Program-made: the position numbers and the translations under genes
From: a virus
Strand: one strand, 5' to 3'
Length of the DNA: 31,478 nucleotides
IMG/VR virus record: IMGVR_UViG_3300027844_000659
Span: 1 to 31,478 of that record
Shown here: positions 10,592-22,533 of the stretch, piece by piece
Position numbering within the stretch: the first letter of the stretch is position 1
Layout of the letters: each line of letters opens with the position of its first letter
Notes under the pieces: generated by a model
The model's input: the letters and a program-made list of their open reading frames with translations, nothing else
What the model was told of the DNA's origin: nothing
The model's database searches: none

Positions 10592-11143
10592 TTATCTTCT
10601 GCGAGTCGTTGCGTGACTGAGCCTGTCGTTCCCTGACACAGCCCCACTCACCCCAGAAGCCTCGTTGCCATCGTCGTCCGTGTCAACAGACACACCGCAC
10701 AGCCCCTGCACCAGCCACCGCCTTGCGTACGTGTGGAAGGAGGCAAACTGGTGGACACCTGTCTGCTTCGGGCAATGCACCGCAGATTCCCGGGTATCAG
10801 TGCCGTATGCCAGTACCGCTGTGATGTAGTGTCCGTCACGCTCACGCTTGTTACGCACGACAGTACTCGACGACCCGTCAGTGTGATTGATCTGCTCTTC
10901 CTCCACGTAGTCCATGTAAGAAGGTGACACCTCAGTGTGCAGTGATAGCCCATGCCTGGACAGCACCTTACGCACGCTCTTGAGCAATGCGCCAAGGCTT
11001 ACGTACTTACTACTGAAGTGCGAGTTCTCCATGTCAGCAGTAGCATCAGCCAACTCACCCTGCGCCAAGGCCAGTGCCTCGGTTAGGTTCTCAGGCATTG
11101 CCACCTTTGCCTTCTGGGTTTGACTCTCTCTCTTCTGCGTCAT
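10592..11143 (-). CDS. erf: ERF-family single-strand annealing protein
   Basis: This 183-residue protein has the ERF pattern: an N-terminal helical region with NLTEALALAQGEL, then a segment on partially processed strands and schedules (SSKYVSLGALLKSVRKVLSRHGLSL), a central variable part, and the typical HQFASFHTYARRW segment before LVQGLCGVSVDTDDDGNEA (about residues 128-162). ERF proteins bind single-stranded DNA and anneal complementary strands during phage recombination and genome end-joining. The partner exonuclease (YqaJ type) is encoded two genes upstream in the same operon, which supports the call. The ATG has a GGAGG site 7 bases upstream that overlaps the end of the preceding gene. 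The C-terminal tail is short and basic (ATTRRR). Confidence 0.85.
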   Translation of the reverse strand: MTQKRESQTQKAKVAMPENLTEALALAQGELADATADMENSHFSSKYVSLGALLKSVRKVLSRHGLSLHTEVSPSYMDYVEEEQINHTDGSSSTVVRNKRERDGHYITAVLAYGTDTRESAVHCPKQTGVHQFASFHTYARRWLVQGLCGVSVDTDDDGNEASGVSGAVSGNDRLSHATTRRR

Positions 11144-13187: not shown

Positions 13188-13403
13188 GGTAATACCTCCC
13201 CTCTTGCAACCCTAACAGGCTGACCCTACTCCCGTGTTAATGGCTAGTTATGTCATGCTATGTGGAATAGGAAGGGGGGGCAGGACCAACCATGACCCTT
13301 TTCCCCTGGTTAAACCAATAAACCCCAGGAAGTGATCACACTTGCTCGTGTCCTGCCCCCGTGGAAAGGAGAGTTTCAGTCAGACCGTCATGGTTGGTCC
13401 TGG
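13188..13403 (-). promoter_or_regulatory. Intergenic regulatory region with inverted repeat pair
   Basis: This 216-bp gap lies upstream of the two HTH genes. CAGGACCAACCATGAC (13281-13296) and its exact reverse complement (13387-13402) are separated by 90 bp. Between them are an 11-bp palindrome TGGTTAAACCA (13307-13317) and another copy of GTCCTGCCCC (13350-13359). The same sequence family occurs near 18,030-18,240. This arrangement looks like an operator/promoter region for leftward transcription; the binding protein is unknown, and the neighbouring HTH proteins are candidates. Confidence 0.55.
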
Positions 13404-13667
13404 CTAAGACTCACCCCCGCTAAGAATGTCCTCCAGTCTGCGCCCCAAATCTAGCAGCACTTCAGGGCTCACGTCCAGGTCCGGTATCGAATGGCTCAAC
13501 ATGACCACGTTAATACCAGCCTTCACTAGCACTATCCTTGCCACCTCTAGGGCCAGCAAGAGATCGTCGTCGTCAATCAGGTTGCGGATAGGTTCGGTCG
13601 GGTCACCGGGCAACGGATCGTCGCTAGGCATACCCGTCCATGTCCCGTCCTCGTGACGCTCAGGCAT
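13404..13667 (-). CDS. Hypothetical small acidic protein
   Basis: This is an 87-residue acidic protein with no motif I recognise. The N-terminus is loop-rich (Pro, Asp, Gly) and the rest is helical and hydrophobic (LLLALEVARIVLVKAGINVVMLSHSI), ending in an acidic tail. The start overlaps the end of the upstream GP88-like gene by 8 bp, so the two belong to one operon. The ribosome-binding site (GTGGGATACA) is weak, which fits translation coupling to the upstream gene. It is the last gene before the intergenic regulatory region that precedes the HTH pair. Confidence 0.65.
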   Translation of the reverse strand: MPERHEDGTWTGMPSDDPLPGDPTEPIRNLIDDDDLLLALEVARIVLVKAGINVVMLSHSIPDLDVSPEVLLDLGRRLEDILSGGES

Positions 13668-14646
13668 TGTATCCCACTCTCTGCACGAACTCCGTCAGGT
13701 TGTCGAACATGAACCGTGAGTTCTTGTCCCGTTTAGCCGGACGACCAAGTGGCTTCAAGCACACGAGGCTACTGCTAGGGTCAAGTCCCCTCGAATCATT
13801 CGTCGTGCCGTCAATCAGAGTGTATCCGATCTCACCCACTAGGTCAAGCGCCGGGTCGTCATGAATATCAGGGAACTCACGGAACACCGCAGCCACGTTG
13901 CCGACCTGCGTAGACAAGACATTCTTAGTCCACCTATCCCTACTCCCCGCACTGAACGTCAGTTTGTAGTTGGAAGGGAACGTACTCCCCTCAACGTACT
14001 GAACCATGCGGTGGTAGTCTTTCGTGTAATCAAAGAACTTCACTGTCGATAGGGTCCTGTTGAAGTATGCGATAGGGCTATACTCGTCACTGTACCAGTC
14101 AAGGTCGCTACCCCCGTTGAGCCTGACCCATAGGTCTAACTCTCCAGGCTTGTAGCGTACCCCGTCCTTGGTAAAGCCACGGTCAGCCTTACGCTTGACT
14201 TCCAGTACCTCACACACAAGGCTCTCGTAAAAGAACTCCTTGTCTGCTATGTACAAGAGCGTCTTCAACGCCTCGTAGATATGAAGGTCACGGTACTGCA
14301 ACCTGCCTGCGTACTGTGCTAGGCATACAAACTTACAAGTACAGGCGTACTCGCAAGCGTTGAACGACCTGACCTTATCAAGCAGGCCCTTGCAGTCCAC
14401 GCCAGTAGCAGAGGCAACAGCAGCAACTAGACGCTTCCCAAGTGAGGTTCCTAGTGGCTCGTGATCCCCGGCCTCCGAGAAGAACACCATACGATAGAGT
14501 GACCTCTCAGGTGACAGGTACATGACTGGTGTCAGCACGCCACCCTTCAAGGACTTCTCTACCTTGAGGCTAGTGCCTAAGAGATTCTGAAGAACGAATG
14601 GTCTCCCGCCTGCTTGACGGAAGACATTAGGTACTTCCACATACAT
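13660..14646 (-). CDS. GP88-family phage protein
   Basis: This 328-residue protein follows the pattern of the conserved phage Gene 88 (GP88) family: a Cys cluster with C98, C102, C104 and C108 leading into CLAQYAGR (108-115), a central acidic-hydrophobic helix (FFYESLVCEVLEV), then VRLNGGSDLDW (174-184), FFDYTKD (204-210) and NYKLTFS (226-232). The biochemical role of this family is not established to my knowledge; the Cys cluster suggests metal binding. The 90-residue N-terminal part before the Cys cluster is specific to this protein. The start ATG is preceded by GGAAAGGAGTAGAGTC, whose GGAG is in the 3' arm of a small hairpin; the same leader precedes the DUF932-like gene. Confidence 0.78.
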   Translation of the reverse strand: MYVEVPNVFRQAGGRPFVLQNLLGTSLKVEKSLKGGVLTPVMYLSPERSLYRMVFFSEAGDHEPLGTSLGKRLVAAVASATGVDCKGLLDKVRSFNACEYACTCKFVCLAQYAGRLQYRDLHIYEALKTLLYIADKEFFYESLVCEVLEVKRKADRGFTKDGVRYKPGELDLWVRLNGGSDLDWYSDEYSPIAYFNRTLSTVKFFDYTKDYHRMVQYVEGSTFPSNYKLTFSAGSRDRWTKNVLSTQVGNVAAVFREFPDIHDDPALDLVGEIGYTLIDGTTNDSRGLDPSSSLVCLKPLGRPAKRDKNSRFMFDNLTEFVQRVGYNA

Positions 14647-14651
14647 GACTC

Positions 14652-14668
14652 TACTCCTTTCCAGAGTA
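14652..14668 (-). promoter_or_regulatory. RBS-sequestering hairpin before GP88-like gene
   Basis: In the minus-strand transcript TACTC and GAGTA form a 5-bp stem with the 7-nt loop TGGAAAG. The Shine-Dalgarno GGAG lies in the 3' arm, so ribosome access would depend on the hairpin opening. The leader is almost the same as that of the DUF932-like gene, starting at 16008. Confidence 0.55.
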
Positions 14669-14711
14669 TTCTATTACTCCCGGTGGGGTGTCATGTTAGA
14701 TAGCAGAGGGT

Positions 14712-14758
14712 TAGGCAGGGGCACACGCCAGGTATCAGCCGCATGATACCCCTGCCTA
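14712..14758 (-). terminator. Bipartite hairpin after DUF932-like gene
   Basis: Five bases after the stop of the DUF932-like gene, the outer stem TAGGCAGG (14712-14719) pairs with CCTGCCTA (14751-14758), and the inner stem GGTATCA (14731-14737) pairs with TGATACC (14744-14750) over a 6-nt loop. It may end or stabilise the transcript. No T-run follows on the minus strand, so terminator is tentative. Confidence 0.4.
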
Positions 14759-14763
14759 TTAGA

Positions 14764-16008
14764 TTACCCTAACTCTCCGTCTACGGTGTGCCCGTAGTTC
14801 TGTGTGTCCGACCCGAAGACCAACGGCACGTAATGGGACGCCCGACTGGCACCACACGACATCAGGTAACTGTTCTCAGTGTCAGAAGCCGCACGATCCT
14901 TCACCATATCCAGCGTCTCGACCAACCTCCGCACCCTATTCGGATTGGGCACGTAGCCCTTCGCCGTGGCACCAAGGTATGACGTCAAGCACTGGCGTAA
15001 ACCATACGCAGTGTGTCCACCGTCCTCCGTTAGCGAAGTCATTCGGCTCTCGTATCCCACTCGCAGTGCCTCGGGGGCACCGTGCTGTTTCGCCCAGTCC
15101 GAGACAACTTGTACTGTCTTGCTCAGCGACTTACCTGAGCACCGAACCGGAGACGCACTGATCACGTCCAGGAACTTGCCGCTTCGGACCTTACCCGGCG
15201 CTGGCGGCAGTGCAGTGACACCGTATGCGTCTTCTGTCATGCTCGGACGAGTTCTCCCAGTGGTACGGTCCAGCATTGGCGTCTTCGTCATCCAGTGCTG
15301 CCTTGCGGACAGTAACCTCAGACTTGTTACCTCTCCGTGGAGCACGTAGTGCAATGCTCTCGCAAACTGTGACCGATCCAACATGATACCGTCGAGTCCC
15401 TCAATGCTGGTGTAGAACGCAGCCACTGTCGAGCGTATCTCTGCATTCGTAGGCATTTTCTTCCACAGGCTCGTCAAGTCGATCTGCCCACCCTTGTGAG
15501 TGACGGACCAGTTGAAGAGCGTGGTTGTGTCGAAGATCTCAAGGTTCAAACAAGATACCCTGAAGATCACAACCTGGGCGTGGGCTCGACCCGTACCGAA
15601 GTAGTTATCGGTGACAACAAGGCTGACCTTGTAAAGATCGCCACGGCGTGGTGCCTCCGGGAGTGACACCATGAGGTCAATCTTCATACTGACACTCACG
15701 GGCACCCTCTGATTAGCAACCTTACGCCATACGACCTTGCACTCAATGCTGCCCGGGTCGCCACCGTACTCTGACTGTAGAGCAGTCATGATCGGGCCGA
15801 ACACCTCAACGGGGTCGAGCAACCTGTACCTTGTGGATACTGCTGCTGCTGACGCCGTCTCACCGTCCGGTGCCGTGTGCTTGATCAACCTTGAACCTGA
15901 TTGGAGATACTCATTCCCTTCCATGTAATGAGCCGGGACAACCTCAAACGTGCCAACTCCGGCACCCTCCAGTGTGGACCTCAACTGATTGCTTATGCAA
16001 TCCAACAT
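14764..16008 (-). CDS. DUF932-like phage protein
   Basis: This 414-residue protein resembles the DUF932 (phage/plasmid-like) family. It has a mid-protein stretch VVTDNYFGTGRAHAQVVIFRVSCLNLEIFDT followed by WSVTHKGG, matching the R-V-C-N and H-x-G pattern of those proteins (about residues 145-190). The family is widespread on phages and plasmids with no firm function. The start ATG at 16008 was chosen over an upstream ATG because GGAAGGGAGTAGAGTC precedes it; the same leader precedes the GP88-like gene. Upstream of the RBS lies the 670-bp non-coding region with large stems. Cys-rich or enzyme motifs are absent. The family call is moderate. Confidence 0.55.
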   Translation of the reverse strand: MLDCISNQLRSTLEGAGVGTFEVVPAHYMEGNEYLQSGSRLIKHTAPDGETASAAAVSTRYRLLDPVEVFGPIMTALQSEYGGDPGSIECKVVWRKVANQRVPVSVSMKIDLMVSLPEAPRRGDLYKVSLVVTDNYFGTGRAHAQVVIFRVSCLNLEIFDTTTLFNWSVTHKGGQIDLTSLWKKMPTNAEIRSTVAAFYTSIEGLDGIMLDRSQFARALHYVLHGEVTSLRLLSARQHWMTKTPMLDRTTGRTRPSMTEDAYGVTALPPAPGKVRSGKFLDVISASPVRCSGKSLSKTVQVVSDWAKQHGAPEALRVGYESRMTSLTEDGGHTAYGLRQCLTSYLGATAKGYVPNPNRVRRLVETLDMVKDRAASDTENSYLMSCGASRASHYVPLVFGSDTQNYGHTVDGELG

Positions 16009-16013
16009 GACTC

Positions 16014-16032
16014 TACTCCCTTCCAAGGAGTA
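16014..16032 (-). promoter_or_regulatory. RBS-sequestering hairpin before DUF932-like gene
   Basis: In the minus-strand transcript TACTCC and GGAGTA form a perfect 6-bp stem with loop TTGGAAG, and the GGAG of the ribosome-binding site is inside it. The sequence from the loop to the start codon is near identical to that before the GP88-like gene, which suggests shared translational control. Confidence 0.55.
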
Positions 16033-16043
16033 CCCAGCACAAT

Positions 16044-16673
16044 GCTGAGTGTATACGCAAGAGTCGTAACAGAGGGTAGTGACGCACGAGTCCGTTGGGT
16101 CTTAGGTCCTCAGTTGACACCTTACAGATACGCTTATAAGTTGTGAAGGTATCGTATGGGTGCCTTGTCTCTGGTCCCTCTTGACCATGTCGCTCGTGCG
16201 TCACCGTCCCAGGTAGTGGCGGGCCGACCCCGCTAGGCTACATTATCACTCCATGCTCCCTCCTGTTCGGCTATTGCGTATACACTCAACTCCCTAAGTA
16301 AAAAGGTTGGGAGTCCTGACTACAGAGCAATGTATCAAGCAGCAGAAGGGTACCGAAGCACCCGTGTACTGAGAGTCCGATCACTGACTAAGCGAATCCG
16401 CCTAGTGTAAAGACCGTTGCTTAACAGGTAGCACTATTACCTGTCCCCGTGTGTGGGTTTCTCTGTTCAGACGAGCCTATGGCTCTTAATAGTAAGCGTG
16501 TCGGAGGCGTTGTGAGCCAGGGTGACGCCTTTCGACGATCCAGTTCTCACAACCTATCCATTCGCCTGACTATGTTCTAGCCAGGTAGGAGACCAGTGCG
16601 GTACCTCGGGCACTGTTGTTGTTGCTTCATTCGGAGTGCGGTTGCAGTCAAAGGTTTGGGGGCTTTCGCCCCC
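16044..16673 (-). ncRNA. Large structured non-coding region, candidate RNA or leader
   Basis: No convincing gene lies in 16,009-16,678, yet the sequence pairs with itself extensively. TGAGTGTATACGCAA (16046-16060) is the exact reverse complement of 16274-16288 (15 bp). Nested inside, GTGACGCACGAG (16079-16090) matches 16193-16204 (12 bp). Local hairpins include 16172-16187, 16289-16314, 16387-16406, 16424-16444, 16473-16485, 16500-16536, 16565-16585, 16594-16615 and 16658-16673. On the minus strand A-C mismatches in the 16387 and 16565 hairpins become G-U pairs, and the 16658 hairpin gets a GAAA tetraloop, so minus-strand transcription is favoured; two wobble pairs in the long stems favour plus, so strand is open. 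It could be a 5' leader of the DUF932-like gene or an independent RNA of a class such as GOLLD or ROOL. I cannot assign it to a known class. Confidence 0.5.
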
Positions 16674-16678
16674 TCCCC

Positions 16679-16996
16679 TCAGTCGTCCCACTTCTCACGG
16701 CTCAGTTCCACCGCTGCCTCGTGGGCCTTCAGATCGTCACCGCTCAATCGGGCACCAGTACTGAGCCTGATACCGTCCACCGTCACCGAAGCAGCCTTGT
16801 GCTTGACTTCGGGTTTGCGACTGAGTACCTTGGTCCTAACCAAGTCGTCGGGTCGCAACGGGTGGAGATTGAGCGGGACTCCGACTTTGTCTGCACGCTC
16901 CGGTTTGTTCACCCGTGACACCATTCGTGCCATGAGGTTGGAACGGCTCCGGGTGCCGCTGGACAGTGTCGGGAACAGATCATCCAGATCTGACAT
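16679..16996 (-). CDS. Hypothetical basic protein upstream of structured RNA region
   Basis: This is a 105-residue protein with many Arg/Lys residues and no clear motif. The N-terminus is acidic (MSDLDDLFPTL), the middle basic and loop-like (RSRSNLMARMVSRVNKPER), and the C-terminus helical. A good ribosome-binding site (GATAGGAGT) lies before the ATG, and a promoter-like pair lies at 17070-17097. It ends 5 bases before the GAAA-loop hairpin that opens the structured region. It may be a small DNA- or RNA-binding protein, but this is only a guess from charge. Confidence 0.65.
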   Translation of the reverse strand: MSDLDDLFPTLSSGTRSRSNLMARMVSRVNKPERADKVGVPLNLHPLRPDDLVRTKVLSRKPEVKHKAASVTVDGIRLSTGARLSGDDLKAHEAAVELSREKWDD

Positions 16997-17294: not shown

Positions 17295-17688
17295 CCGATA
17301 ACGTTAGGGCCGATAATATGCCATCCACACTTGCTCTGGTATGTCAAGACAAATCCGGTTATTTTCAGGGCCGATAATATACAGGGCCGATAACGTGTTA
17401 TGTTCCGATAATATGTCCATGTTCTGATAAGATGTGGGGGCCGATAATGTTTCAGGGCCGATAATGTCAGGGGGCCGATAAGATGGCGGGCCGATAAGAT
17501 GCTTGGGCCGATAATATTGGGGCCGATAAGATGCTGGGCCGATAAGATAAGGGCCGATAATGTACGGGCCGATAAAGTTAGGGCCGATAATGTACGGGCC
17601 GATAAGATGCATACGTTATCGGCCCTGTCGAGGGCCGGTAATGTAGGGCCGATAATGTCAAGCGCTCGCAGGATCCAAGGGCCGATAA
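17295..17688. repeat. Iteron-like array of GGGCCGATAA repeats, origin candidate
   Basis: About 21 copies of GGGCCGATAA or close variants occur here in the same orientation except one. From 17438 to 17605 eleven full copies follow each other at a 15-17 bp spacing (five of them exactly 15 bp apart). At 17616-17625 one exact inverted copy occurs; with 17596-17605 it forms a perfect 10-bp inverted repeat with a 10-nt spacer. The next copy (17632) is GGGCCGGTAA. The sequence after each core varies (AATGT, AGATG and similar). Regular tandem sites beside an AT-rich stretch resemble iterons bound by a replication initiator. The SF3 primase-helicase nearby could act here. CRISPR is excluded because there are no long unique spacers. 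Confidence 0.75.
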
Positions 17689-17714
17689 GATTCGGGGGTC
17701 AGCCCCCCCACCGC

Positions 17715-22143: not shown

Positions 22144-22533
22144 CTAGAAGGGTGTCTCCTGGGTTTCCGGGGCCCGAGTTTTCTTGGGAGCAGCCACGTA
22201 TTCCTCAGATTCGGCCCACGCCTTGCACTTGACGAACTGGACATTGTTGCACTCGACAATGACAGCCTTCCGTGGTTCTCCGTCACGAGTCTTGTACTCG
22301 TCAATGCGGAGGGTTCCAGTGATAAGCACTGAGTCGCCTTTCACCAGATACTTCTCGCAGTTGTCGGCTCCCTTTCCGTAGACCGTTACGTCGAGGAAGT
22401 TGGTGTGCTTCCTGTCCGCTGAACCGAGGTTGTTGGCGATCCGGAACTCTGCTACTTTCGTTCCGTTCTTGGTGACGTCCGTCTCAGGGGAACCAACGAG
22501 GTTTCCTGAGATGGTAAGATTGTTGAACTGCAT
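22144..22533 (-). CDS. ssb: Single-stranded DNA-binding protein
   Basis: This 129-residue protein shows the OB-fold of SSB: MQFNNLTISGNLVGSPETDVTKNG, then GTKVAEFRIANN, FLDVTVYGKGADNCEKYLVKGDSVLITGTLRIDEY and a final strand (about residues 1-108). The tail ends in ETPF, a short version of the acidic tip that recruits partner proteins in bacterial SSB. It coats single-stranded DNA during replication and the YqaJ/ERF recombination steps. The ATG has a good upstream GGAGG. It is the first clearly replicative gene of the leftward block. Confidence 0.93.
   Translation of the reverse strand: MQFNNLTISGNLVGSPETDVTKNGTKVAEFRIANNLGSADRKHTNFLDVTVYGKGADNCEKYLVKGDSVLITGTLRIDEYKTRDGEPRKAVIVECNNVQFVKCKAWAESEEYVAAPKKTRAPETQETPF

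Follow-up and report, generated by a model that had tools for sequence, protein, structure and literature searches.

A candidate new class of large structured RNA encoded within the early gene block of a small tailed phage

GOLLD and ROOL are phage and prophage RNAs of unknown function that are often located near tRNA islands and form RNA-only nanocages, with a ROOL RNA of 659 nt already structurally solved (PMC12286853). OLE, an ornate RNA of about 600 nt, is comparable in size, and its biochemical role is largely unknown. The put-type antiterminator RNAs of lambdoid phages also represent structured RNA within an early phage transcript, being roughly ten times smaller than the RNA described here and located in promoter-proximal leaders. 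Phage RNAs as large and complex as these have very rarely been described, and what the best-known examples do is unexplained. Here we analyze positions 16,044 to 16,673 of the viral record IMGVR_UViG_3300027844_000659, whose 31,478 nucleotides together constitute the window, from a small, podovirus-like tailed phage with a genome of roughly 40 kb that is represented by environmental DNA only. We propose that this stretch very probably encodes a previously undescribed large phage RNA, best read as a new, stand-alone class of large phage RNA, with the following extent.

16047-16678, minus strand: predicted structured RNA, whole; 5' end near 16678 and 3' end near 16047, both ends predicted

The RNA looks like a molecule of the GOLLD and ROOL kind that belongs to neither family. 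It shares with GOLLD (RF02032) the character of a very large structured phage RNA with a conserved and a variable part, but has about 630 nt where GOLLD often exceeds 800, and lacks the tRNA genes that often lie near GOLLD (PMC12286853). ROOL (RF03087) is of similar size, phage-borne and rich in hairpins; here, however, its model finds no match and tRNA genes are not nearby. ARAGORN detected zero tRNA genes, whether in the window or in additional parts of the two longest contigs from relatives. Using cmscan with Rfam 15 at the gathering threshold and at E <= 10, the three available orthologues gave chance-level matches only. The GOLLD covariance model was without match in the full library, in all three orthologues and in a family search in which control genomes matched only below the family cut-off; ROOL gave no match in the full-library scan and none in a separate family search that had no working positive control; and the OLE model, despite the likeness in size, also gave none in the full-library scan. 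The proposal of a sequence-only reading of the window that the RNA could be a GOLLD or ROOL is consequently not upheld, while its alternative of a previously undescribed large structured phage RNA finds support in the fold energy, the covariation, the strand asymmetry and the synteny of the three lineages. Two chance-level candidates were rejected, namely the snoRNA sn1502 (22.1 bits against a gathering threshold of 60) and a viral frameshift hairpin model placed on the GC-rich 5' hairpin. A self-splicing intron or another ribozyme would be compatible with a large multi-domain RNA having peripheral arms of variable length, yet no Rfam intron or ribozyme model, group I and II included, matched any orthologue at E <= 10, and the RNA sits between two complete genes rather than inside one, with no endonuclease or maturase open reading frame (ORF) within, rendering this explanation very improbable.

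Protein-anchored and motif searches of IMG/VR reveal the RNA in three lineages: that of the window, including IMGVR_UViG_3300027838_000014 (40,513 bases; identity of about 99.9% in the stretch that was compared); IMGVR_UViG_3300024520_000170 (L008, 41,508 bases); and a group formed by 3300001524_000339, 3300001681_000529 and 3300001515_000351 (L013, L014 and L021, respectively). The two further lineages carry the RNA at the same genomic place as the window, and each record with the DUF932-like gene has, upstream of that gene, the RNA or as much of it as the contig covers. Several further contigs from these phages stop at a repeat array near 17.3-18.1 kb, short of the RNA. Identity of the RNA to the window is 90% in L008 and 80% in L014, compared to 75% and 65%, respectively, for the DNA of the DUF932-like gene. 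Insertions and deletions (indels) are located in hairpin tips and arms. A hairpin of roughly 22 nt is present in L008 and L014 and lacking in the window, and in L014 the whole 3' arm (16079-16204) is swapped for an unrelated 35-nt hairpin while the stem carrying it is retained; this combination of indels and arm exchange is the usual mode of structural RNA divergence. In a search for wider homologues, the 16-mer CTGTAGTCAGGACTCC recovered, among viral contigs, four that carry the RNA, besides five matches due to chance. In genome contigs, the 17-mer CTGAACAGAGAAACCCA yielded 23 matches, about chance level and with homology never extending beyond the motif, and a 21-mer zero. Two near-identical Clostridia matches sharing 22 nt with the RNA were examined and then dropped. 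Protein-anchored searches, based on alignments of the DUF932-like, GP88 and primase proteins, led back only to contigs from these few lineages, and blastn against 50,697 phage and 72,556 plasmid records detected no relative of the RNA.

Folding of the minus strand is far better than expected from shuffled sequence. The minimum free energy is -255 kcal/mol, as opposed to -209.5 +/- 7.4 for 150 dinucleotide shuffles (z -6.1; z -7.3 with 20 shuffles), and the orthologues behave alike (L008 z -7.4, L014 z -6.9), whereas the plus-strand fold is weaker (z -2.9 to -3.4). As a control, 48 other windows of 650 nt from the same contig, stepped every 1,300 bases and folded on both strands, range from z +2.0 to -4.5, barring two that overlap the RNA; with 12 shuffles each, these control values are rough. 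Two perfect inverted repeats stand out, a 15-bp repeat TGAGTGTATACGCAA at 16046-16060 and 16274-16288 and, nested within the resulting stem, a 12-bp repeat GTGACGCACGAG at 16079-16090 and 16193-16204. Among 300 mononucleotide shuffles of 16027-16678, a perfect repeat of at least 15 bp occurred in 0 and one of at least 12 bp in 2. The two stems, on which the sequence-only reading had built its view of the architecture, are thus real and beyond chance; that view needs revision in that both sit only in the 3' third of a minus-strand RNA, the most conserved part being about 16288-16553, away from them.

The structure is conserved through compensatory changes. In a non-circular test, the centroid fold of the window alone was projected on each relative, with substitutions permuted in 2,000 trials. 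On L014, 36 pairs are changed, 10 of them compensated, 14 kept by a one-sided change and 12 broken, where permutation yields 1.8 compensated pairs (at most 7) and 25.5 broken ones (at least 16), none of the 2,000 trials being as extreme. This is the covariation in related phages by which the structural proposal was to be judged. On L008, the two compensated pairs are not significant alone (P 0.17), and 15 pairs are broken against 19.5 expected (P 0.007). In a structure of 107 pairs derived from the three sequences, pairing holds in 98.4% of cells and both sides have changed in 10 pairs, figures that fall to 36-44% and 0-2, respectively, when the structure is slid by 1-3 columns; since this structure was chosen with the alignment in hand, the single-sequence projection represents the cleaner test. 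Also the 15-bp stem covaries, with one pair reading A-U, G-U and G-C, and the next C-G, C-G and U-A, in the window, L008 and L014, respectively.

The one-sided changes from the window identify the strand. In the minus-strand fold, 13-14 of them keep a standard pair of the G-U type and 4 yield A-C, compared to 5-7 kept and 8-13 A-C in the plus-strand fold. Retention of G-U and avoidance of A-C are thus confined to the minus strand, a pattern that points to pairing of this strand as RNA, in agreement with the minus-strand transcript expected from the neighboring annotated genes, all of which, from the SSB gene (22144-22533) to the Erf-like gene (10592-11143), lie on that strand. The asymmetry also bears on whether the inverted repeats act at the DNA level, as cruciforms or protein sites of a replication origin, a packaging site or a recombination site. 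Such an element would fit the position within the replication gene block, about 0.6 kb from an origin-like repeat array, but cruciforms would not favor one strand, and the plus-strand fold is much weaker, leaving little probability for this option.

Protein coding can be set aside with near certainty. The phage genome is dense and short ORFs are present, as an undetected gene would require, but stops occur in every one of the six frames in each of the three orthologues, frame-breaking indels include lengths of 1, 2, 7 and 20 bases, and substitutions distribute over the three phases as 18/22/25, without the codon periodicity or third-position excess seen in the neighboring gene (86/55/173). The absence of a credible gene or conserved ORF between the small upstream ORF and the DUF932-like gene thus stands, and a conserved protein, which would have spoken against an RNA, is not found in the related phages. 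With compensated structure and no conserved coding frame, the stretch would take its place among large structured phage RNAs, and we regard it as almost certain that a minus-strand RNA with a conserved structure is encoded here.

The alignment of the three lineages (A5) defines 17 helices. According to the model, the stand-alone, non-coding and highly structured RNA of about 630 nt would have a GC-rich hairpin on its 5' side, a conserved core of several hairpins and, on its 3' side, a domain that is closed by the 15-bp stem and bears an exchangeable arm, as listed here from 5' to 3'.

16658-16673, minus strand: GC-rich 5' hairpin GGGGGC-GAAA-GCCCCC (helix 2 of A5); in L014 the loop is UUCG and one G-C is replaced by A-U
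16594-16615, minus strand: hairpin CAGUGC/GCACUG with conserved loop CCGnnGUACC (helix 3, invariant)
16509-16553, minus strand: long hairpin GUUGUGAG/CUCACAAC, its apical part capped by GAAA (helices 4-6; two compensated pairs)
16473-16485, minus strand: hairpin GAGCC/GGCUC (helix 7); GACAC/GUGUC in L014 (two compensated pairs)
16423-16445, minus strand: hairpin ACAGGUA/UACCUGU (helix 10); one pair is C-G, U-G and U-A across the three lineages
16378-16416, minus strand: almost invariant element CGGUC...GAUCG around the hairpin ACUAGGCG-GAUU-CGCUUAGU (helices 11 and 12)
16340-16371, minus strand: hairpin with a tip about 21 nt longer in L008 (helix 13)
16288-16315, minus strand: hairpin GACUCCC/GGGAGUU with conserved U-rich loop AACCUUUUUACUUA (helix 14)
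16274-16288, minus strand: 15-bp long-range stem closing the 3' domain, 5' strand (helix 15)
16079-16204, minus strand: long arm including the nested 12-bp stem; L008 keeps it, and L014 has an unrelated 35-nt hairpin instead
16046-16060, minus strand: 15-bp long-range stem, 3' strand (helix 15)

We note that L013, from about position 530, has about ten bases fewer than L014 in the 3' strand of the closing stem (TTGCAACTCAGGG versus TTGCACATACACTCAACTCAGGG), either an assembly error or a natural variant.

The RNA lies within the early DNA-metabolism gene block, and its immediate surroundings are as follows.

16679-16996, minus strand: small upstream ORF of 105 aa, family matches all below threshold
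16006-16032, minus strand: short leader of the DUF932-like gene whose hairpin TACTCC-TTGGAAG-GGAGTA contains the Shine-Dalgarno sequence; in L014 this leader accompanies the gene rather than the RNA
14764-16008, minus strand: DUF932-like gene, 414 aa, likely ATG at 16008; identity of 80% and 66% in the other two lineages

The position of the RNA upstream of the last of these genes is as previously described, but the family name is not secured, as the Pfam match behind it is sub-threshold (15.2 bits against a cut-off of 23). In L013, L014 and L021, an unrelated acidic ORF of 90 codons (MVFYDDDDNMIPS...), preceded by its own Shine-Dalgarno-like sequence AAGGAGAAGGAG, is placed between the RNA and the DUF932-like gene. 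This ORF is bounded by near-perfect 24-bp inverted repeats (22/24 by reading; L014 9463-9486 and 9141-9164, minus strand), and ORF and flanking repeats together (L014 9141-9486, minus strand) look like a cassette. As the inserted ORF stands apart and the leader hairpin is kept with its gene, the RNA is a module of its own, independent of the gene immediately downstream. The suggestion of a regulatory leader is hence unlikely for the DUF932-like gene, since a separate ORF intervenes in one lineage, and conceivable for the operon.

The latter represents the main rival, a cis-acting intercistronic element of the early operon, i.e. a large leader, processing or antitermination element for downstream genes. 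The location of the RNA within a minus-strand operon without a clear terminator of its own, its placement upstream of the DUF932-like gene in all lineages and the other structured gaps of the same operon agree with such a role, but the intervening ORF with its Shine-Dalgarno-like sequence and the leader hairpin that remains with the gene do not, and known processive phage elements such as put are generally far smaller. We therefore consider cis action unlikely, albeit the foremost alternative. A stand-alone RNA acting in trans is instead favored, with a probability of about 0.6. The RNA would probably be co-transcribed with the small upstream gene and then persist as a separate folded molecule, transcription and RNA ends being deduced. 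In analogy to GOLLD and ROOL, it may work as a structural RNA that binds to a partner from the phage or the host, or to its own copies, rather than as a switch for one neighboring gene.

Several observations weigh against this proposal. Trans action and oligomerization are suggested by analogy only; convincing signals for an own promoter or terminator were not found (7 promoter-like sites where 4.0 are expected); the DUF932-like gene follows the RNA in all lineages, compatible with a cis role for the downstream operon; and, with three lineages only, the covariation rests on few independent events. More speculatively, and with a rather low likelihood, the RNA could represent an ornate class that has no sequence relationship to GOLLD or ROOL, needs no protein for folding and self-assembles or encloses a host component in infection, being a third independent origin of phage RNA assemblies. 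As 630 non-coding bases are costly in a genome of roughly 40 kb, and helices, conserved core and exchangeable arm are already apparent from three orthologues, the phage offers a compact system for asking what large phage RNAs do.

Other structured or repeated sites are present nearby. A second structured non-coding stretch (13270-13404, minus strand) lies between the ORF at 13404-13667 and a Cro-like helix-turn-helix gene; its long stem GGACCAACCATGAC/GTCATGGTTGGTCC has a counterpart in L014, GGACGAAGTATGAC/GTCATGCTTTGTCC, that by reading pairs throughout despite several base differences, and about 60 nt downstream of the stem are almost invariant in the three lineages, while the fold energy alone is unremarkable (z -1.6). 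Between the DUF932-like and GP88 genes (14647-14763, minus strand), a strong hairpin AGGCAGGGG...CCCCTGCCT is found (z -3.9). Both genes share an upstream Shine-Dalgarno element (TACTC..TGGAAGG..GGAGTAGAGTCATG; 16006-16032 and about 14644-14672, minus strand) in which a small hairpin contains the ribosome site, and common translational control is possible. In a search for antisense targets in the phage genome, the RNA region matched, besides itself, only this shared element, at 14643-14668. Finally, a GGGCCGATAA-type unit recurs about 18 times in 17295-17690, mostly at a spacing of 15-17 bases and beside replication genes; several relatives' contigs end in this array, possibly a replication origin or a protein-binding array.
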